From: an uncultured bacterium
GTDB lineage: Bacteria; Verrucomicrobiota; Kiritimatiellia; RFP12; UBA1067
Direction of reading: 5' to 3'
Assembly: GCA_902776615.1 (NCBI GenBank)
Contig: CACYQU010000013.1
Coordinates: forward strand, 1-40,826
Length of the DNA: 40,826 nt
Of this stretch, positions 8,016 to 31,340 are shown piece by piece; the first letter of the stretch is position 1; each line of letters starts with the position of its first letter. The notes under the pieces are model-generated. The model did not search any database, was not told the DNA's origin, and saw only the letters and a program-made list of their open reading frames with translations. The position numbers and the translations under genes were made by a program.

Positions 8016-8885
8016 ATGAAAGTGAAAGTTCCGCAGAAGCTGGCTTCGGCCTTCAGGAAGCGTCCCGTCGACGCCGACAAGTATTCTGTCGGGACGGTGT
8101 CGGTCGTTGGCGGATCGTGGCGCTACGCGAACGCTCCCGTGATGGCCGGTCTCGGTGCCCGCGCGGCGGGCGCGGGGCTTGTGCAGCTTGTCGTGCCCGG
8201 CGCGTCGCGCATGTGCGCCGGCGCGCTTCTGCCGGAAGCGACTTTCACCAAGCTTACGCCCAACTGCCTGCCGCCCAAGGCTGATGTAACGGTCATAGGC
8301 ATGGGGCTGGGCGCTTCGGTAAGTTCCGAACTGATAGTGTCGCGTCTCCTGTCGGGTTCCAGCGGGCGTTTCGTGCTCGATGCCGACGCGCTGCAGATAC
8401 TCGCCGGGTGGTATGGGCGAACCGAAGGCTACGAGCCGGCCGCCGGACAGGAGCTGATTCTCACGCCGCACGAAGGCGAGGCGGCGCGGCTTCTGGGGAC
8501 CGATCGCGGCGCGGTGTCGGCGAACAGGCCGCTGGCTGCGCGAAAGATAGCCGAGCGCTACGGCGCGACGGTTGTTCTGAAGGGCGCGAAAACGCTGGTC
8601 GTGTCGGTGGATGGTTCGCGCGTCTGGGAGAACACGACCGGGAATCCCTTCATGGCTCTCGGCGGGATGGGCGATCTGCTGGCTGGCGTCATCGGCGCAC
8701 GATGGGCGTATCTGAAATGCGATGCTTTTCTGGCGGCGGCGTCCTCGGTGTGGCTGCACGGCGCGGCGGCGGACTGTGCGGTAGCGTCCGGGCGCGAACC
8801 TTCGATCTCAAATACGGCTGCGGAGGTAGGGGCTCTGCGGATCCGGCTGGATGGAGAAAATCTCAAAAGCGGAGAGACCACATGA
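8016..8885 (+). CDS. nnrD: ADP-dependent NAD(P)H-hydrate dehydratase
   Basis: Repairs hydrated NADH/NADPH in the cytosol by ADP-dependent dehydration. The ribokinase-like fold shows GTVSVVGGSWRYANAP near the start, VLDADAL, LTPHEGEAARLL, and the nucleotide/catalytic signature GNPFMALGGMGDLLAG with Asp220. The protein has 289 residues and only the dehydratase half; the epimerase half (NnrE) that is fused in many bacteria is missing, so NnrE would have to be elsewhere. The ATG at 8016 is chosen because the promoter ends 6 bases before it; the longer open frame from 7923 would overlap the promoter and the upstream gene. The stop overlaps the next ATG as ATGA. Confidence 0.93.
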   Translation: MKVKVPQKLASAFRKRPVDADKYSVGTVSVVGGSWRYANAPVMAGLGARAAGAGLVQLVVPGASRMCAGALLPEATFTKLTPNCLPPKADVTVIGMGLGASVSSELIVSRLLSGSSGRFVLDADALQILAGWYGRTEGYEPAAGQELILTPHEGEAARLLGTDRGAVSANRPLAARKIAERYGATVVLKGAKTLVVSVDGSRVWENTTGNPFMALGGMGDLLAGVIGARWAYLKCDAFLAAASSVWLHGAAADCAVASGREPSISNTAAEVGALRIRLDGENLKSGETT

Positions 8886-9988
8886 AGATAAACTATCAGG
8901 CGCTCATCGACCATCTGTCCAAAAGCGATGCAGCCTTCGGCTTGCTGACAATGCAGGCGACATCCACCACCGGGCGGCTCATGGCTGAATTTCCGGACAG
9001 GTTCAAGTGCCTGTTTTCCGCCGAGCACGGCTTCTTCGGAACGTCCGCTGCCGGCGAGAAGACGGCGAGCGCGTGGCATCCATACTGGAACAGGCCCATC
9101 CATTCGCTGTACGGCGAGCACCGCCATCCGACGGACGAGATGCTTTCGGGGCTCGGGTGCATGGTGATTGACCTGATGGATCTCGGCGTGCGCTGCTACA
9201 CCTACCTTGCGACGGTCAAGAACGTTCTTGAGACCTGCGCGGAGAAAGGGGTGGCCGTTGTCGTGCTGGATCGTCCCATACCGCTTGGCGGCGTGCTCGA
9301 CGGTCCGATGCGCAAACCCGCCTACGCGTCTTTTGTCGCGCCGCTCAACATACCTTTCTGCCATGGCATGACGCCTGGCGAATGCGCGATGTGGATCAAG
9401 TCCGCCGAGGGTCTCGACCTCGACCTCACGGTCGTGCCGGTTCTGGACTGGAGCCACGCTTCGCGCGATCCGTGGCCGAACTTCGTTCCGCCCTCGCCGG
9501 CAATCCGCGGCTGGGACAACGCGGTCTTCTATCCCATGACCGTGTTTTCCGAGGCGTATCCTTCGGTGGACTGCGATCGCGGCGGACCGTTGGCGTTTCG
9601 CGTGATCGGCGCGCCATGGCTCGACCAGCGCGGACTGATAAAAGACCTCACGCCGGGGCTTTCGAGCTGCGGAGTTGGAATGCGTCCGTACCGGTACGTT
9701 CCGCAGTCCGGGCAGTACAGCGGCCAGCATCTGAACGGAATACTCTTTACGCTTGCAAACCCCGACGCGTACTATCCGGTGACCGCCGGAATGCTCGTGT
9801 ACACGGCGCTGCTGCAGCACCACGGAAGCAAGATGGCGTTTGGGTCGAAGCCCGAGTGGTTCGACAGACTGTATGGTTCGACCGAAATCCGCGACACGCT
9901 GCAGAACGGCGATCTCGGAGAGCTTTTCACGAATTGGATCGACGCGCAGGACGAGTTCCTCAAAACGCGAATCGACCTGTATGCATAA
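8882..9988 (+). CDS. DUF1343 protein, exo-beta-N-acetylmuramidase (NamZ) family
   Basis: 368 residues. Family motifs are visible in order: SAEHGFFG (Glu48, His49), SLYGEHRHPT, DLMDLGVRCYTY, VVLDRPIPLGG, FCHGMTPGE and DRGGPLAFRVIGAPWLD. DUF1343 enzymes characterised in Bacillus subtilis and Tannerella forsythia remove terminal MurNAc from peptidoglycan fragments. There is no signal peptide, so this copy is predicted cytoplasmic and would act on imported muropeptides or recycling intermediates. The ATG at 8882 overlaps the nnrD stop (ATGA); the longer frame from 8408 is a shadow of nnrD. The nfu gene follows after 18 bases. Confidence 0.85.
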   Translation: MKINYQALIDHLSKSDAAFGLLTMQATSTTGRLMAEFPDRFKCLFSAEHGFFGTSAAGEKTASAWHPYWNRPIHSLYGEHRHPTDEMLSGLGCMVIDLMDLGVRCYTYLATVKNVLETCAEKGVAVVVLDRPIPLGGVLDGPMRKPAYASFVAPLNIPFCHGMTPGECAMWIKSAEGLDLDLTVVPVLDWSHASRDPWPNFVPPSPAIRGWDNAVFYPMTVFSEAYPSVDCDRGGPLAFRVIGAPWLDQRGLIKDLTPGLSSCGVGMRPYRYVPQSGQYSGQHLNGILFTLANPDAYYPVTAGMLVYTALLQHHGSKMAFGSKPEWFDRLYGSTEIRDTLQNGDLGELFTNWIDAQDEFLKTRIDLYA

Positions 9989-23776: not shown

Positions 23777-25798
23777 ATGGACAAAAACGGCGGCAACTTC
23801 AAAGCTACAGGTCTTGGGTGTCTTATCGACATTGTGCTCGTGATGGCTTCTGTCGCGGCAATCTCGAGCAGCTGCGGTGCTTCAATGATGATCTACATGA
23901 TGGCGCTTGCCGTTCCTGTGTGGATAATTAGATTTGCGATCTTCAACGACCGCACGCCGCGATTGGCGCGCATTCTGATCGGCCCGGCAGGAGTCGTCGC
24001 AAGCCTTGTTCTCGCTTTGCTGCACCCAATCGAAATCGAATCGGCAGACGATGCGCAGGATGGCAAGGCGAAAGAGTCTCGGACTGCAGAAAAGTCCGTC
24101 ACGCAGGTAGCCGAGACGAATCGCGAATCGGTCGACGACGTTCTTGCGGAACTTGATTCCCTTGTGGGGCTTGAGGAAGTCAAGGCGGAAGTAAGGCGTA
24201 TAGTCAATCTTGCCAAGGTGAACGAAGCCCGGCGCGCACAGGGTCTGAAGGTGCCGCCGATGACCTATCATATGGTATTCACGGGAAATCCAGGGACGGG
24301 AAAAACGACTGTCGCGCGCATAGTCGCGCGTGCGTTCCGTGCGCTAGGTATAGCCAAAACCGGGCAACTTGTGGAAACGGACCGTTCCGGACTTGTCGGC
24401 CGCTATGCGGGCGAGACGGCGGTGAAGACAAACGAAAAAATCGACGAGGCTATCGGCGGAGTGCTTTTTGTCGACGAAGCATACCAGCTTGTCAGCGGCG
24501 AAGGCGACGATTACGGAAAAGAAGCCATTGCGACCCTGCTAAAGCGCATGGAGGACGACCGCGACAAGCTGATAGTGATCGCTGCAGGCTACACCGATGA
24601 AATGAGAGACTTCCTTGATGCGAATTCGGGCCTGAGAAGCCGCTTTGCAAAGACGATAGAATTTGCCGATTATACGGCCGGCGAACTTGCCGCCATATTC
24701 CGCTCTATGGCGAAGAAAAACGAGTTCTCCCTTGCTCAGGATCTAGACGACGGGCTCGACGCGGCAATCGCCAAGCTCACGTCAAAGCGCGACCGCACGT
24801 TCGGCAATGCGCGTTTTGTGCGGCAGCTCTTCGAGGACGCGACGGCGCGTCAGGCGAATCGCATAGCCGCTTCCGGCGTGATGGACGCGCAGTCTCTGCA
24901 GACGCTCGTGCTTGCAGATCTCGCCACGGGGGAGCGAAAGGCAGATGTTCGCGCGCCAAGCCTCGACGATGTTCTGGCCGAACTCGATTCCCTCGTCGGC
25001 CTTGCGCCCGTAAAGAATGAGGTGCGGCGTCTTGTGGCGACTGTGAAGGCAAACAAGCTCCGCGAGGAGAAGGGACTTGAAAACAACGTAACGATGAGCT
25101 ACAACTTCGTGTTCACGGGAAATCCCGGAACCGGAAAAACGACTGTCGCAAGAATACTCGGCAAGGCGTTCAGAGCCTTGGGCGTACTTGACAGGGCAAA
25201 TTTCGTGGAAACCGACCGCTCGGGTCTTGTCGCCAAGTACGAAGGGCAAACAGCGGCCAAAACGAACAAGTTGATCGACTCTGCCGCCGGCGGCATACTG
25301 TTCATCGACGAGGCGTATCAGTTGAACCAGGGCGAGAACGACCAGTATGGCTCCGAGGCTGTCGCCACGCTTCTCAAGCGCATGGAGGACGCCCGCGGAT
25401 CGATGGTTGTCATCATCGCCGGATACAAAGCCGAGATGAAACGCTTCATGGACATGAATTCCGGTCTTGAAAGCCGCTTCAACCGCACTATCGAGTTTCC
25501 CGATTACAGCGCGAAGGAACTGGCCGAGATATACAGATCGATGGCCAAGAAAGGCAAGTACGTCCTTTCGTCCGACACCGAGCGGTGGCTTGAGCCGTAC
25601 ATCTCGCTTCTCACCGAAAAGCGGGACAAGAATTTCGGAAATGCGCGCTGGGCCCGCAACCTCTTCGAGAAATCCGTTGAACGGCAGTCTCTTCGTGTGA
25701 CTGAGCTTTCCGATCCATCGGCGGAAGAACTTGTCACAATACGCCTTAAGGATCTGGGCGTGAAACTCAAGGATCCAGACGCGTCCGACGAAGACTAA
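23777..25798 (+). CDS. Membrane-anchored tandem AAA+ ATPase (CbbX/SpoVK type)
   Basis: 673 residues. Two or three hydrophobic segments (about 12-28, 34-51, 61-78) precede a short linker and two homologous AAA+ modules, each opening with the same phrase DDVLAELDSLVGL. Walker A motifs GNPGTGKT are at 170-177 and 448-455, Walker B motifs are LFVDEAYQL and LFIDEAYQL, and both have sensor and arginine-finger regions, so both look active. Modules of this class include the Rubisco activase CbbX, SpoVK and the N-terminal part of type VII EccA, all of which remodel partner proteins. The ATG at 23777 has AAAGGAG upstream. It lies 26 bases before the GH89-VIT-VWA chimera, suggesting a functional link, although that protein is predicted to be exported. 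Confidence 0.9.
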   Translation: MDKNGGNFKATGLGCLIDIVLVMASVAAISSSCGASMMIYMMALAVPVWIIRFAIFNDRTPRLARILIGPAGVVASLVLALLHPIEIESADDAQDGKAKESRTAEKSVTQVAETNRESVDDVLAELDSLVGLEEVKAEVRRIVNLAKVNEARRAQGLKVPPMTYHMVFTGNPGTGKTTVARIVARAFRALGIAKTGQLVETDRSGLVGRYAGETAVKTNEKIDEAIGGVLFVDEAYQLVSGEGDDYGKEAIATLLKRMEDDRDKLIVIAAGYTDEMRDFLDANSGLRSRFAKTIEFADYTAGELAAIFRSMAKKNEFSLAQDLDDGLDAAIAKLTSKRDRTFGNARFVRQLFEDATARQANRIAASGVMDAQSLQTLVLADLATGERKADVRAPSLDDVLAELDSLVGLAPVKNEVRRLVATVKANKLREEKGLENNVTMSYNFVFTGNPGTGKTTVARILGKAFRALGVLDRANFVETDRSGLVAKYEGQTAAKTNKLIDSAAGGILFIDEAYQLNQGENDQYGSEAVATLLKRMEDARGSMVVIIAGYKAEMKRFMDMNSGLESRFNRTIEFPDYSAKELAEIYRSMAKKGKYVLSSDTERWLEPYISLLTEKRDKNFGNARWARNLFEKSVERQSLRVTELSDPSAEELVTIRLKDLGVKLKDPDASDED

Positions 25799-25824
25799 AA
25801 CCGCTTAAGGGAAAAGGAGGAAAA

Positions 25825-28800
25825 ATGAAAAACATCACAACCATCGCATTTCTGATTGTCGCGTTCGCTTCGCATGCAGAATCGGCCGCAACCCCAGCCC
25901 CAGTGCGGCTCGCCTATAACTACTGCACTCTTTCGTACACCTTCGCCTACTACGGCGAGAAAGAATGGACGGATGAGGTCGAAAGACTTTCCATGGCCGG
26001 ATACAACGCTGCGCTGCTCATGGACGGCACATTCAAAGTCTGGGAGCTTACGCTGCGCGAACTTGGCATGTCCGAAGAAGATATCTTCGCTTTCATCCCC
26101 GACGAATGCGCACGAGCATGGTGGCTTATGGGCAACCTCGCAGGAGAGGGCGGTCCGCTCGACCAGGCGACGATTGACGCGGATGGAGCACGCGGTCGCT
26201 TCATAGCCGAAAAAATGCGCGAGAAGGGGATAGAGCCCGTTCTCCAAGGCTTTTACGGAATGGTTCCTGCCAATCTTGCCGTCGCGCCGCTTCTCAATCA
26301 GGGAAAGTGGTGCGACTGCTATGATCGCCCGCCGATTCTCGATCCGACTTCGCCAGACTTTGAGCGTTGCGCCGCCGCGTGGTACCGCAGCATCGAAACG
26401 GTATATGGGATCAAGCCGAAGTACCTTGCAGGCGATCTCTTCCACGAAGGCGGCAAGTCCGAAGGAATAGACGTGACGGCTGCCGTGCGTGCCGTACAGT
26501 CTGCTCAGCAGACAGCGTTCCCTGGCGTGACCTGGGTCGTGCAGGCCTGGATGGAGAACCCCACGCAAAAGGTTCGCGCCGGTCTCGACCCTCGTTACAC
26601 TCTCATCGAAGCCCTCGTCAAGGACATGTCGGCATTCGCGAGCGACGACGCGACGTGCGAACTGGATTTCGGCGAATTGCCGTGGATATGGTGCGAGGTT
26701 CTGAACTTCGGCGGCAACCACGGTCTTTACGGAAACCTCAAAACGTTTGCACGCCTCGGGCGCGCGGCTAAGGGGAAAGGTGCGCGGACATTCCGCGGCT
26801 TCGGATCTCTTTCCGAGGGTTTCTTCACGAATCCAGTCTGCTCGGATATCTTCGAGTACATGATGATGCAACCAGCCGGGACGGAACTGACAGATGCCGA
26901 ACTCGCCGCGTGGCTCGACGATTGGGTGGGCAGGCGCTACGATCTGAACTCTCTGACCCCGTCTGCCGGCGACAAACTTCGCGAGGCGTGGCGCATTATC
27001 GCGTCGACGGCCTACGCCTGCGGACGCTGCCAGGAGGGAACTGTCGAGAACGTCATATGCGCCAAGCCGGGCTGGACGGCGAACAGCGCGAGCTCGTGGG
27101 GTCCGAAGGACGGTCTGTGGTATGACCCGGCGCGGTTTGGGCGCGCGGCGGAACTCTTCGAGGAGGCATGGAAGGAGAGCCTTTCCACATCCAACTCGAC
27201 AGCCGTGGCGAACTTCGCGCGCGATCGGTATGACGTTCGCCGACAGGCGTGGGCGAACAGGCTGCGCGCGCTTGTGCCGCAGTTGAAGGACAACGCGGAC
27301 GCGCGGCGCGAGTTTCTGAATGAAGCGGAGTCGTTCAACGTCTGCACGGCTTTCGGCATTCCGCCGGAATTCCGCCTTTCCACATGGCTGGATCTCGCCC
27401 GGGCGCGCGCCGGGGAGCGCGGAGAAAAGGCGTGGATGAGGATGATCACGACGTGGGCCGGCGCGAAATACGGCGCGACATTCCTCGCCGACTACGCCAA
27501 CCGCGAATATGCGGAACTCGTCCGCGACCACTACCTACCTCGTTGGCGCCGCTTTCTGGAGACGGCAACACCATTGCCGCCGATCGAGCCTCGGCCTCTG
27601 CCGCTGATTCGCGTTGACAATCTTCGCGCGAACGAAAAGCCTGTCAAAGTCGAGACTTCCGAGGAAACCGTTGACGAGAACGGATTCTTCCGCCGCGTGA
27701 AGACGGTTTTCGCCTTCACTAATCCGAATGCGCGCCAGATGTCGGGCGAGCTGGAGTTCCCCATTCCAGACGGTGCCTTTGTATGCGGTTATTCGCTTGA
27801 GGTGAATGGCGAGATGGTTCCAGGCGTCGTCTGCGAAAAGGAAAAGGCGCGCGTAGCTTTCGAAAACGAAGTAAAAAAAGGAATAGACCCTGGTGTCGTC
27901 GAGCAGGTGAAAGGCAATATCTGGCGCACGAGAATCTTTCCTCTCCTGCCAAATACGCCGCGCCGCGCCGAGGTTGAATACATTGCGCCAAAAACCGTAG
28001 GCAAGGGTTCCTGCGCATCGATCTGCGAACGCGACGGAAAGGATGTCTTTGTCGCAACGGTTCTGCCTGAAGACGGCGCGAAGATGCAGACTGTCGCCCA
28101 AAAGATCGCCGCGTTCGCCAAGGGTACGATACTGTGGGATGCGAGCATGAGCGCGAAGCCGTTCGCGTCGGCATGGCGCAAAAAACTCGAGGCACTGCCT
28201 GAAAAGGGCGAGTGGAAACTCGTAGTTTTCCGTCATGTCCCTGAAGATCCCCGCGCAATGGCAACGCGAGAAGAACTGTTTGCGGCGCTCGATGCGCTCG
28301 CATACGACGGCGGTACGGATATCAAGGCCGCTGTTGAAGCATGCACGCCTTCGGCTGATTCTCCAGTTCTCTTCTTCAGCGACGAGGTCGATACAATGGG
28401 CCTTGAAACGCCTAAATACGAGGAGACGGCTGGCGTCACCGTCGCAAGCCGTGACGACGCCCCGGTGCGCAAGGTCGATATAAGGCGGTTAAAGGAAGGG
28501 GAGACGCCTCCCGAGGGACTGTCCGTCAAAGATGGCCGGGTTCTCGCCACGGTCTGGGCTGCGCGTCGCATGCAGGATCTTGCGTCGCAGGCCGATTCGC
28601 GCGAGGGCGAGTTCCTCGCGCTCGGCCGCAAGTACGGCGTCGCTGGACCAGGACTTTCGCTTATAGTTCTTGAAACGCTCGATCAGTGGCTTGAGCACAA
28701 GATCGAGCCTCCTGCCAACCTCGCGATTCACGATGAATGGATCAAGAGGCGCGCGGCCGAGGATGATCCGATTGCGCTTCGCAAAGCCAAAGCAGAACAC

Positions 28801-30105
28801 GAACAGAATCTTCTCAACTACTGGGAAGAGCGCGTCAAGTGGTGGAACGATCCCAAGCCGCGCAAGGCCACGCCCAAGAGCGGACTTTTCGACAGCGTCA
28901 CGAACGATGCCGCAACCGAGGGTGCGATCGCTCCGGACGAACCTGGCGGTTCAGAGGATTCAGCGCCGGTTGCCGCCGCTTCGGGAATGCGCCGTTCTGA
29001 AGAGCGGCTGCAGAGGCGTGCAGTGGGCTCGAGAAGGGAGTCTGCGCCGATGAGTGAAGACGAGGCCTCTTTACTGATGGCGGGTGGCGCACAGAAATCC
29101 GTTCAACCGGGCGCGGCAGGGTCTGGCACATCGCCAACAGTCACGCTCAAGGCGTGGGATCCGAAGACGCCGTATATCGATGCGCTCAAGGCTGCGGAGA
29201 AGGGCAGAGCGTATGAAGTATATCTCGCCCAGCGCGAAGAGCACGGTTCTTCGCCGGCGTTCTATCTCGACTGCAGCGGTTGGTTCTTCAAAGCGGGCGA
29301 AAGGGCACTTGCCGAGCGAATCATTTCGAACCTCGCAGAATTCAAGCTTGAGGACGCGGCGCTCTGGCGCACGATGGGCTGGCGTCTGCGCGAGGCCGGC
29401 AGCCTGAAGATGGCGGTCGACGCATTCCGCAAGGTTCTTGCGATGCTCCCTGAGGAGGCGCAGAGCCGCCGCGACTTGGCGCTTGTGCTTTCGGAACTCG
29501 GCAAGGAGCGCATGGATGCGGCCGCCGTCGAAGAGGCGATGAGGCTTTTCGCAGAAGCGGCGTTCGACATAAATGCCCGGCGCAGCGGACGGCGCGGCAA
29601 CGATTTCCAGGTTTCAATCGTCTCGCTTGAAGAGCTCAACGGGCTGATTGCCTGGTCCGATGCGGCTTTCTGGCCGGACGGCGCGAGACCTGTCCAGCCG
29701 CAATTCGATGCCGCCTATCGCCGTGATTTGCCGATGAAGCTCAGAATCGTCATGAGCTGGGATGCGGACGAGACCGATATAGACCTCCATGTGCTGGAGC
29801 CGAACGGCGAAGAAGCGTATTACGGTCATCGCAGAACTGCCGAGGGAGGTTTTGTCTCGGAGGATGTAACGACCGGTTACGGTCCTGAGGAATACCTGAA
29901 GAAGGAGCTTGAGGCCGGAACATACAAAGTCCTGTCCAACTACTTCGCCTCCCACCAGACCGCGCTCACCGGCGCGACGACCGTGACTGCGACCGTCTAT
30001 ACAGACTGGGCGACAGGACAGGAGAAGCATCAGATTCTCACCATGCGCCTCGACAAACCGAAGGCAAAGCATTTGATTGGAGAGGTCAATCTCGGCAATC
30101 GCTGA
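25825..30105 (+). CDS. GH89 alpha-N-acetylglucosaminidase fused to VIT, VWA, TPR and DUF2135 (YfaP) domains
   Basis: A 1426-residue exported protein. A signal peptide (1-18, ending FASHA) leads into a complete GH89 domain (about 25-590): NYCTLSYTFAYYG, WIWCEVLNFGGNHGLYGNL, acid/base candidate Glu208 in GDLFHE, nucleophile candidate Glu331 in GSLSEGFF, and the usual all-helical tail. A VIT domain starts near 593. A VWA domain follows with an intact metal site: DASMS (772-776), GGTD near 831 and a later SDEVD. After a low-complexity linker (about 1020-1110) come TPR-like helices (1111-1245) beginning AWDPKTPY, then DUF2135 (1303-1426) with SWDADETDIDLHVLEPNG. VIT-VWA-TPR-DUF2135 is a known bacterial architecture; the GH89 front is the unusual part. 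GH89 removes terminal alpha-GlcNAc. The reading frame is unbroken through all junctions. AAGGAGG precedes the ATG. Confidence 0.9.
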   Translation: MKNITTIAFLIVAFASHAESAATPAPVRLAYNYCTLSYTFAYYGEKEWTDEVERLSMAGYNAALLMDGTFKVWELTLRELGMSEEDIFAFIPDECARAWWLMGNLAGEGGPLDQATIDADGARGRFIAEKMREKGIEPVLQGFYGMVPANLAVAPLLNQGKWCDCYDRPPILDPTSPDFERCAAAWYRSIETVYGIKPKYLAGDLFHEGGKSEGIDVTAAVRAVQSAQQTAFPGVTWVVQAWMENPTQKVRAGLDPRYTLIEALVKDMSAFASDDATCELDFGELPWIWCEVLNFGGNHGLYGNLKTFARLGRAAKGKGARTFRGFGSLSEGFFTNPVCSDIFEYMMMQPAGTELTDAELAAWLDDWVGRRYDLNSLTPSAGDKLREAWRIIASTAYACGRCQEGTVENVICAKPGWTANSASSWGPKDGLWYDPARFGRAAELFEEAWKESLSTSNSTAVANFARDRYDVRRQAWANRLRALVPQLKDNADARREFLNEAESFNVCTAFGIPPEFRLSTWLDLARARAGERGEKAWMRMITTWAGAKYGATFLADYANREYAELVRDHYLPRWRRFLETATPLPPIEPRPLPLIRVDNLRANEKPVKVETSEETVDENGFFRRVKTVFAFTNPNARQMSGELEFPIPDGAFVCGYSLEVNGEMVPGVVCEKEKARVAFENEVKKGIDPGVVEQVKGNIWRTRIFPLLPNTPRRAEVEYIAPKTVGKGSCASICERDGKDVFVATVLPEDGAKMQTVAQKIAAFAKGTILWDASMSAKPFASAWRKKLEALPEKGEWKLVVFRHVPEDPRAMATREELFAALDALAYDGGTDIKAAVEACTPSADSPVLFFSDEVDTMGLETPKYEETAGVTVASRDDAPVRKVDIRRLKEGETPPEGLSVKDGRVLATVWAARRMQDLASQADSREGEFLALGRKYGVAGPGLSLIVLETLDQWLEHKIEPPANLAIHDEWIKRRAAEDDPIALRKAKAEHEQNLLNYWEERVKWWNDPKPRKATPKSGLFDSVTNDAATEGAIAPDEPGGSEDSAPVAAASGMRRSEERLQRRAVGSRRESAPMSEDEASLLMAGGAQKSVQPGAAGSGTSPTVTLKAWDPKTPYIDALKAAEKGRAYEVYLAQREEHGSSPAFYLDCSGWFFKAGERALAERIISNLAEFKLEDAALWRTMGWRLREAGSLKMAVDAFRKVLAMLPEEAQSRRDLALVLSELGKERMDAAAVEEAMRLFAEAAFDINARRSGRRGNDFQVSIVSLEELNGLIAWSDAAFWPDGARPVQPQFDAAYRRDLPMKLRIVMSWDADETDIDLHVLEPNGEEAYYGHRRTAEGGFVSEDVTTGYGPEEYLKKELEAGTYKVLSNYFASHQTALTGATTVTATVYTDWATGQEKHQILTMRLDKPKAKHLIGEVNLGNR

Positions 30106-30130
30106 GCCGTATGCGTACACACATTGGAAA

Positions 30131-30139
30131 TGGTATAAT
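30131..30139 (+). promoter_or_regulatory. Extended -10 promoter (TGGTATAAT) of the aminotransferase unit, leaderless type
   Basis: Exact copy of the recurring box, 7 bases before the ATG at 30147. No ribosome site fits between, so leaderless translation is predicted. Confidence 0.72.
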
Positions 30140-30146
30140 ACACAAC

Positions 30147-31340
30147 ATGCAGACTGTTACAGATCAGATCAAGAGCTCGATGGCGTCTTCGAGCTGGATT
30201 CGCAAAATGTTTGAAAAGGGGCTTGAGCTCAAGAAGCAGTTCGGCGCTGACGCCGTCTGCGACTTCTCGCTCGGCAATCCGGATGTTCCGCCTCCCGCGA
30301 AAACACGGGATGCGCTTGAGAACATCGCGCTAGAGGCGGTAAAACCGCTCGGTCTGGGATATTGTCCAAATGCAGGCATCCCGGCTGTTCGCGAAACGAT
30401 TGCGGCCGCGCTTTCAAAGCAGCAGGAAATCCACCTGGACGGCAAAGACGTGGTAATGACGGTAGGTGCGGCCGGTGCGCTTGTGGCGTTCTTCCGCGCT
30501 GTAATAGAACCTGGCGACGAGGTTATCACACCTGCCCCGTACTTCGTGGAGTATGGCGCTTACTGTGGGCATTTCGGCGGCGTATTGAAACCCGTACCGT
30601 CTCTCCCGCCTGCATTCCGTCCGGATGTGGACGCCATTGCCTCCGCAATCACGCCAAAGACGCGCGCGATCATAGTCAATTCGCCGAACAATCCGACGGG
30701 CTGCATATATTCGCCAGAAGACTTGAAACGTCTCGCCGCCGTAGTGGACAAGGTCAACGAGACGCGGAATCGTCCGTTGTTCTTGCTTTCCGACGAGCCT
30801 TACCGTGCATTCGCATACGACGGCGCAACAGTTCCGGCGATGTTGCCGCTTACAAAATTCGCCTGCGTTCTCGGCAGCTTTTCGAAGACGCTCTCGCTTG
30901 CGGGCGAAAGAATCGGGTATTTCGTGGCCAACCCTGAAATGCCAGATCAGGCGTCGCTTGTCGCCGCTGTGACTTTGACAAATCGCACGCTCGGATTCGT
31001 CAATGCACCTGTCATCGGCCAGCGCCTCGCCGCCGCGCTCGTCAACGAGACGGTAGATCTTGAGATATACGACCGCCGCCGCAAACTGATGGCAAAGGTT
31101 CTTTCCGAGGCCGGAATCGAGTTTGAAATGCCGAAGGGGGCGTTCTACTTCTTTGCAAAAAGCCCGGTAGAGGACGATACAGTCTTTGTGGACACTTTGC
31201 TGAAGGAGCGGATACTTGTGGTTCCGGGAAAAGGTTTTGGCTTCGGCGGCTATGTGCGCTTGAGCTGCAGCGTCGATGAAGCGATAATAGCCCGTTCGGC
31301 CGATGGCTTCAAAAGGGCGATGGAGACGTTCCGCAAATGA
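30147..31340 (+). CDS. Class I/II pyridoxal-phosphate aminotransferase (aspartate aminotransferase-like)
   Basis: 397 residues. Family motifs: FSLGNPDVPPP, GLGYCPNAGIPAVRETIA, VNSPNNPTG, LSDEPYRAF, the PLP lysine in SFSKTLSLAGERIGY (Lys247), and the C-terminal YVRLSCSV arginine that binds the substrate carboxylate. It transfers amino groups between an amino acid and a 2-oxo acid; the exact substrate is not clear. The start is set by the promoter at 30131; the in-frame ATG 36 bases upstream lies before the promoter. The stop overlaps the next gene as ATGA. Confidence 0.92.
   Translation: MQTVTDQIKSSMASSSWIRKMFEKGLELKKQFGADAVCDFSLGNPDVPPPAKTRDALENIALEAVKPLGLGYCPNAGIPAVRETIAAALSKQQEIHLDGKDVVMTVGAAGALVAFFRAVIEPGDEVITPAPYFVEYGAYCGHFGGVLKPVPSLPPAFRPDVDAIASAITPKTRAIIVNSPNNPTGCIYSPEDLKRLAAVVDKVNETRNRPLFLLSDEPYRAFAYDGATVPAMLPLTKFACVLGSFSKTLSLAGERIGYFVANPEMPDQASLVAAVTLTNRTLGFVNAPVIGQRLAAALVNETVDLEIYDRRRKLMAKVLSEAGIEFEMPKGAFYFFAKSPVEDDTVFVDTLLKERILVVPGKGFGFGGYVRLSCSVDEAIIARSADGFKRAMETFRK

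Follow-up and report, generated by a model that had tools for sequence, protein, structure and literature searches.

We analyzed a 40,826-nucleotide stretch of DNA (hereafter the window; contig CACYQU010000013.1) from an uncultured bacterium, and in particular a forward-strand gene at 25825-30105 that joins a family 89 glycoside hydrolase (GH89) to a VIT-VWA-TPR-DUF2135 protein in one frame. The source is a draft Kiritimatiellae genome of 127 contigs, 88% complete, whose named relatives were sampled mainly in the rumen and in other herbivore guts. The gene is preceded by the Shine-Dalgarno sequence AAGGAGG (25814-25820, forward strand, read directly from the sequence), begins with ATG, and runs open without a stop for 1426 amino acids (aa), encoding, in Pfam order, NAGLU, NAGLU_C, VIT and DUF2135 domains. 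Its hydrophobic N-terminus (Kyte-Doolittle 2.6 over 12 residues) is a putative signal peptide of approximately aa 1-21 (25825-25887), called from hydrophobicity; there is no hydrophobic signal at the junction of the two halves. A preliminary description of this locus had proposed an unbroken fusion frame encoding an exported protein, and these features agree with both proposals.

The N-terminal half is a GH89 enzyme in sequence and in predicted structure. Residues 28-344 (25906-26856) match the NAGLU TIM barrel (PF05089, E 1e-66) at 225 bits against a curated cut-off of 25.5, and a model of aa 24-792, built like the other models from an alignment of the window protein and its relatives, superimposes on CpGH89 of Clostridium perfringens (2vc9) with Z 29.9 over 523 aligned residues at 2.2 Å. 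By alignment, the protein has the two catalytic glutamates of GH89 that the preliminary description had named: the candidate acid/base E208 (26446-26448), in the motif FHEGG, corresponds to E483 of CpGH89, and the candidate nucleophile E331 (26815-26817) to E601. The CpGH89 pair has chain indices 458 and 576, a spacing of 118, with which the spacing of E208 and E331 is consistent. The domain had also been called complete, which does not hold for the full NAGLU layout, for there is no match to NAGLU_N (PF12971), and the helical C-terminal domain (NAGLU_C, aa 363-581; 26911-27567; PF12972, E 3e-30) is shortened, matching profile positions 1-217 of 268 and leaving the last ~50 unmatched; the three-domain layout is accessory rather than defining for GH89. 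Stand-alone GH89 relatives end where the fused GH89 part ends.

The GH89 half would be expected to remove terminal alpha-linked N-acetylglucosamine (alpha-GlcNAc). In a phmmer alignment W425 (27097-27099), which sits in the motif SASSWG, is the equivalent of Trp685 in the mucin-type specificity loop of CpGH89, a loop that has been linked to specificity for GlcNAc-alpha-1,4-galactose (GlcNAc-alpha-1,4-Gal) and that is deleted in human NAGLU (PMC8225759). Because this loop is present in the window protein and absent from the human enzyme, mucin-type GlcNAc-alpha-1,4-Gal ends are the likelier target to judge from the sequence, and, of the two substrates suggested previously, heparan-like glycans appear the less likely. 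The same genome encodes a second GH89 (L001:955-3015, contig C28) that is about 48% identical, has a full NAGLU_C and is without a VIT part. Additionally, a GH89 fragment 94% identical to that of the window lies at a contig end, beside GH32, MFS and PfkB genes (L049:7641-8678), in a genome labelled Bacteroidales, reflecting either a binning error or a transfer; the contig end hides whether this GH89 is fused.

The C-terminal half has the composition and order of the VIT-VWA-TPR-DUF2135 family, to which it also aligns over its full length (alignment A1). The VIT domain (aa 620-719; 27682-27981; PF08487, E 2e-19) scores 70 bits against a cut-off of 26.5, and the YfaP-like DUF2135 domain (29734-30093), a predicted beta sandwich with its Pfam core at 29914-30051 (aa 1364-1409; PF09906, E 7e-10), scores 39 bits against 22. 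The VWA domain (aa 765-878; 28117-28458) has no Pfam match and is recognized by its predicted fold: the model of the C-terminal half matches the CMG2 VWA domain with Z 10.5 over 114 aligned residues at 3.1 Å, and its best Foldseek match is the VIT and VWA region of inter-alpha-inhibitor heavy chain 1 (ITIH1; E 4e-8, Z 10.2). This fold carries a complete metal ion-dependent adhesion site (MIDAS), comprising the motif DASMS (aa 772-776; 28138-28152) and the further ligands T831 and D853; among 20 relatives, down to 40% identity, D772, S774, S776 and D853 are invariant and T831 is conserved in at least 90%. There follow a low-complexity disordered linker (aa 1020-1104; 28882-29136), in which the predicted local distance difference test score (pLDDT) falls below 50, and TPR helices (aa ~1114-1300; 29164-29724) that match TPR proteins in both sequence and fold. 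Thus every domain that had been read in this half, including the intact metal site, is borne out.

Proteins with this half and no glycosidase do occur, as had been stated: the VIT-VWA-DUF2135 family is found across the phylum, at about one per genome in the order, and stand-alone VIT-VWA-TPR-DUF2135 proteins in the nearest genera are 53-70% identical to the window protein over the whole VIT half. Besides the fused copy, its own genome, at the completeness given above, has no VIT and no DUF2135 protein. Sorting by an exosortase or sortase was considered and rejected: the sorted VIT families MSEP-CTERM, XrtN and marine_srt_targ of NCBIfam score 30-38 bits against cut-offs of 150-552, with only the VIT part matching, and no C-terminal sorting signal was seen. 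An exosortase gene (EpsH with DUF3485) lies directly downstream of a stand-alone VIT gene in one genome only, G018 (L113:8450-9940). In the f48/g111 genomes the VIT proteins have a long N-terminal extension, which in one of them (L136, genome G232) measures ~280 aa, includes a membrane segment and, judged by eye, looks like an anti-sigma factor.

The two halves meet in a Pro-rich segment (aa 582-612; 27568-27660) that had been taken for a linker. Stand-alone VIT proteins begin with a signal peptide, after which comes the same Pro-rich stretch, and by sequence alignment the segment is their normal mature N-terminus, without its signal peptide, rather than a new linker. Because stand-alone GH89 proteins end at this point and stand-alone VIT proteins start with a signal peptide and then the Pro-rich stretch, one stop codon and one signal peptide were lost in the fusion. 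In the structure model of the junction, aa 582-589 form a hinge of low pLDDT between two confident domains.

The same fusion, at 81-88% identity, is present in UBA4286 (L015, L110; G114), an independent assembly of the same genus. On either side of the fused gene the two genomes have different genes; therefore, the fusion has outlived rearrangements around it. Codon usage and the G+C content of third codon positions are continuous across the junction, and the junction residues of the two proteins can be aligned. The window comes from a draft in many contigs, a circumstance in which an assembly join or a missed frameshift might create such a frame, but the recurrence of the junction in UBA4286 between different flanks, together with the continuous codon usage, makes an artefact of this kind exceedingly improbable, and we reject it. 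Between the window and UBA4286 the synonymous divergence (dS) is 0.4-1.6, and the ratio of nonsynonymous to synonymous divergence (dN/dS) is 0.08-0.21 for the parts of GH89 and 0.06-0.16 for the folded regions of the VIT half, against 0.58 for the disordered stretch (aa 1046-1112), a pattern which in the sequence comparison indicates that both halves are under purifying selection.

NAGLU and VIT domains occur in one frame only in the window genome and UBA4286, 2 of the 162 genomes of the order, and most genomes of the genus encode the two parts in individual genes that lie on different contigs. The window genome and UBA4286 form a clade with support of 100/100 on both the GH89 and the VIT trees. 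The nearest genome to this pair on the GH89 tree (support 87/87), and, less firmly supported, its neighbor on the VIT tree, is G020, in which both parts are present on two contigs. Because the parts are still encoded separately in this nearest relative, the fusion is derived: two genes, one for GH89 and one for VIT-VWA-TPR-DUF2135, merged into a single frame in the common ancestor of the window genome and UBA4286. Across an even sample of 388 phylum genomes, the remaining long VIT frames that could be read are either N-terminal extensions specific to a family or open frames due to chance, none of them with GH89, several long frames (e.g. those of f48/g111 and f44/g87) not having been read individually. 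A search of a library of papers found none on a protein joining GH89 with VIT-VWA-DUF2135 and no mention of DUF2135, and no described role came to light for the VIT-VWA-DUF2135 family, widespread as it is in the phylum. The fusion is confirmed and evolutionarily maintained, and is apparently undescribed, each of its halves being of a known kind.

The VIT module has been joined to other partners as well. In genome G126 the C-terminal part of a GH78-type rhamnosidase is fused to VIT-VWA-TPR-DUF2135 (L097:3-2930), in a gene cut by the start of its contig, and in G023 a 2530-aa frame (L032/L096:2886-10475), with a likely start at aa 499, contains DUF5107, TPR and a domain of ~900 aa ahead of VIT-VWA-DUF2135. 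This middle domain has no Pfam, NCBIfam or convincing PDB sequence match and is glycosidase-like by eye only. Each of these two fusions comes from one draft assembly; in both, the join lies inside the Pro-rich stretch, with no hydrophobic signal left there. A frame of a different type occurs in G118 (L089:4928-9250), where a gene for the chaperone HtpG runs into a VIT gene without a stop while the signal peptide and Met of the VIT protein are kept; here the VIT protein is likely translated separately from its internal start, the alternatives being a lost stop codon or a sequencing error. To account for these fusions the VIT tree has to assume four separate changes, of which well-supported branches force three, and by this phylogeny the GH78-VIT, DUF5107-VIT and GH89-VIT fusions arose independently. 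All three VIT fusions that have lost the VIT signal peptide thus have a carbohydrate-enzyme or DUF5107-type partner (3/3), a number too small for an enrichment test, and export alone would favor such partners. Close relatives of the GH89 domain are, in turn, fused in frame to GH3 (L103:5276-9436, 1387 aa) and to GH97 (L104:555-4235, 1227 aa) in G126, and in G098 an alpha-amylase domain is joined to another, more distant GH89, one with NAGLU_N (L105:5919-9620). From these VIT and GH89 fusions it follows that both halves recombine with other genes in the genus and that fusions of glycan enzymes are frequent.

We propose, with moderate confidence, that the fused protein is an exported alpha-GlcNAcase held at the cell envelope by docking of its single-copy VIT-VWA-TPR-DUF2135 half. 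The join inside the Pro-rich segment removed the GH89 stop codon and the VIT signal peptide, and the GH89 signal peptide would direct the whole product through Sec to the periplasm or beyond. There, the GH89 half would act on terminal alpha-GlcNAc by a retaining two-glutamate mechanism, while the metal-dependent VWA site and the TPR helices would dock to an envelope partner and so hold the enzyme in place, the two halves behaving as separate folded units on a flexible hinge. The presence of VWA and TPR parts argues for an interaction with partner proteins. Furthermore, because genomes have roughly one member of the family each and no other copy accompanies the fused one, the fused protein most probably performs the usual task of the family as well, and the VIT half would keep the function of the stand-alone protein that it replaced. 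Several points weigh against this proposal. The docking role of the VIT half is argued from domain type only; both fused genomes are drafts, 82-88% complete, in which a second VIT copy could be missed; and, because no gene context around the fused gene is conserved between the window genome and UBA4286, no partner can be read from its neighbors.

A possible, though less favored, explanation is that the fusion is neutral, the VIT protein simply borrowing its signal peptide from any exported gene that happens to lie upstream, with the halves working independently or being cut apart after export; carbohydrate partners would then predominate only because these genomes export many such enzymes. The genes upstream of stand-alone VIT genes are what this explanation would lead one to expect, for at ten loci they are unrelated (Mur ligase, biotin synthase, MiaB-like, SSF transporter, methylase, kinase, ABC transporter, Fmt and others), and a conserved glycosidase-VIT operon in species with separate genes is accordingly unsupported. 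Moreover, any fusion that loses the VIT signal peptide needs an exported partner to survive, in-frame glycosidase fusions such as those of GH89 with GH3, GH97 and amylase are frequent, and the one fusion-like frame with a cytosolic protein, HtpG, keeps the VIT signal peptide. Against neutrality, the fusion has been retained over a synonymous divergence of about 0.6-1.1 relative to UBA4286 with both halves constrained, and all three signal-less fusions have carbohydrate-enzyme or DUF5107-type partners.

An improbable alternative holds that the VIT-VWA-DUF2135 half itself binds glycan or matrix and so delivers the enzyme to its substrate instead of tethering it to the bacterium, in a role like that of inter-alpha-inhibitor heavy chains on hyaluronan. 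The closest solved fold is that of heavy chain 1 and the fusion partners are glycan enzymes, but no carbohydrate-binding module was matched in the window protein by Pfam, the membrane segment of the L136 protein (f48, g111) suggests a role at the envelope, and the upstream neighbors of the stand-alone genes at the ten loci are not glycosidases.

The envelope-docking proposal can be extended, rather doubtfully at present, to VIT-VWA-TPR-DUF2135 proteins as a general docking platform for glycan-degrading enzymes in the Kiritimatiellae and their relatives, the fusions being frozen versions of a partnership that is usually non-covalent. If true, this would provide the first function for a single-copy family that is present throughout the phylum. 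Fusion of genes is a classic hint at which proteins work together, and at least three separate fusions of carbohydrate-related proteins to the VIT module point to glycan handling at the cell envelope as its area of activity; that one and the same module was chosen repeatedly is what merits following.

In Escherichia coli, the DUF2135 protein YfaP is encoded beside the alpha-2-macroglobulin (A2M)-like YfaS. No A2M-like gene lies in the window, the A2M gene of this genome being on another contig (C45). Only in two genomes, G113 (C79) and G013 (C176), are the two near each other on one contig, with 3-5 kb between VIT and an A2M-like gene of ~1600 aa, an arrangement that recalls yfaP-yfaS. Across 58 genomes of the genus, 25 have both A2M and VIT, 13 have VIT only, 11 have A2M only and 9 have neither; the presence of the two is not clearly associated, and we rejected a yfaS-yfaP-like partnership. 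Elsewhere, a tetrapyrrole methylase-type domain fused to NUDIX (L048:6815-7924, 370 aa) is encoded directly upstream of a VIT gene. Promoter and terminator matches in 25600-30300 are no more numerous than in shuffled sequences. The window also contains a gene for a NamZ-type exo-beta-N-acetylmuramidase at 8882-9988.

Each part of the fused protein has known counterparts. With CpGH89 (PDB 2vc9, 4a4a) and other bacterial GH89 enzymes it has in common the TIM barrel, the helical C-terminal domain, both catalytic glutamates and the Trp685-type loop; it differs from CpGH89 in having no NAGLU_N, a shortened C-terminal domain and an added VIT-VWA-TPR-DUF2135 tail. Human lysosomal NAGLU (4xwh) has the same catalytic core (Z 29.4) but no Trp loop and no VIT part, and acts on heparan sulfate. 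The stand-alone VIT-VWA-TPR-DUF2135 proteins of Verrucomicrobiota have the same domains over the whole VIT half but lack an enzyme and carry a signal peptide of their own. In inter-alpha-inhibitor heavy chains, too, a VIT domain precedes a VWA domain that has a metal site; they are animal serum proteins and, unlike the window protein, have no TPR, DUF2135 or enzyme. E. coli YfaP has the DUF2135 domain, which in the window protein is instead the tail of a VIT-VWA protein. Finally, the GH78-VIT (L097) and DUF5107-VIT (L096) fusions have the same VIT module and the same junction segment, and have likewise lost the VIT signal peptide, but they carry other N-terminal partners and have separate origins in the tree.

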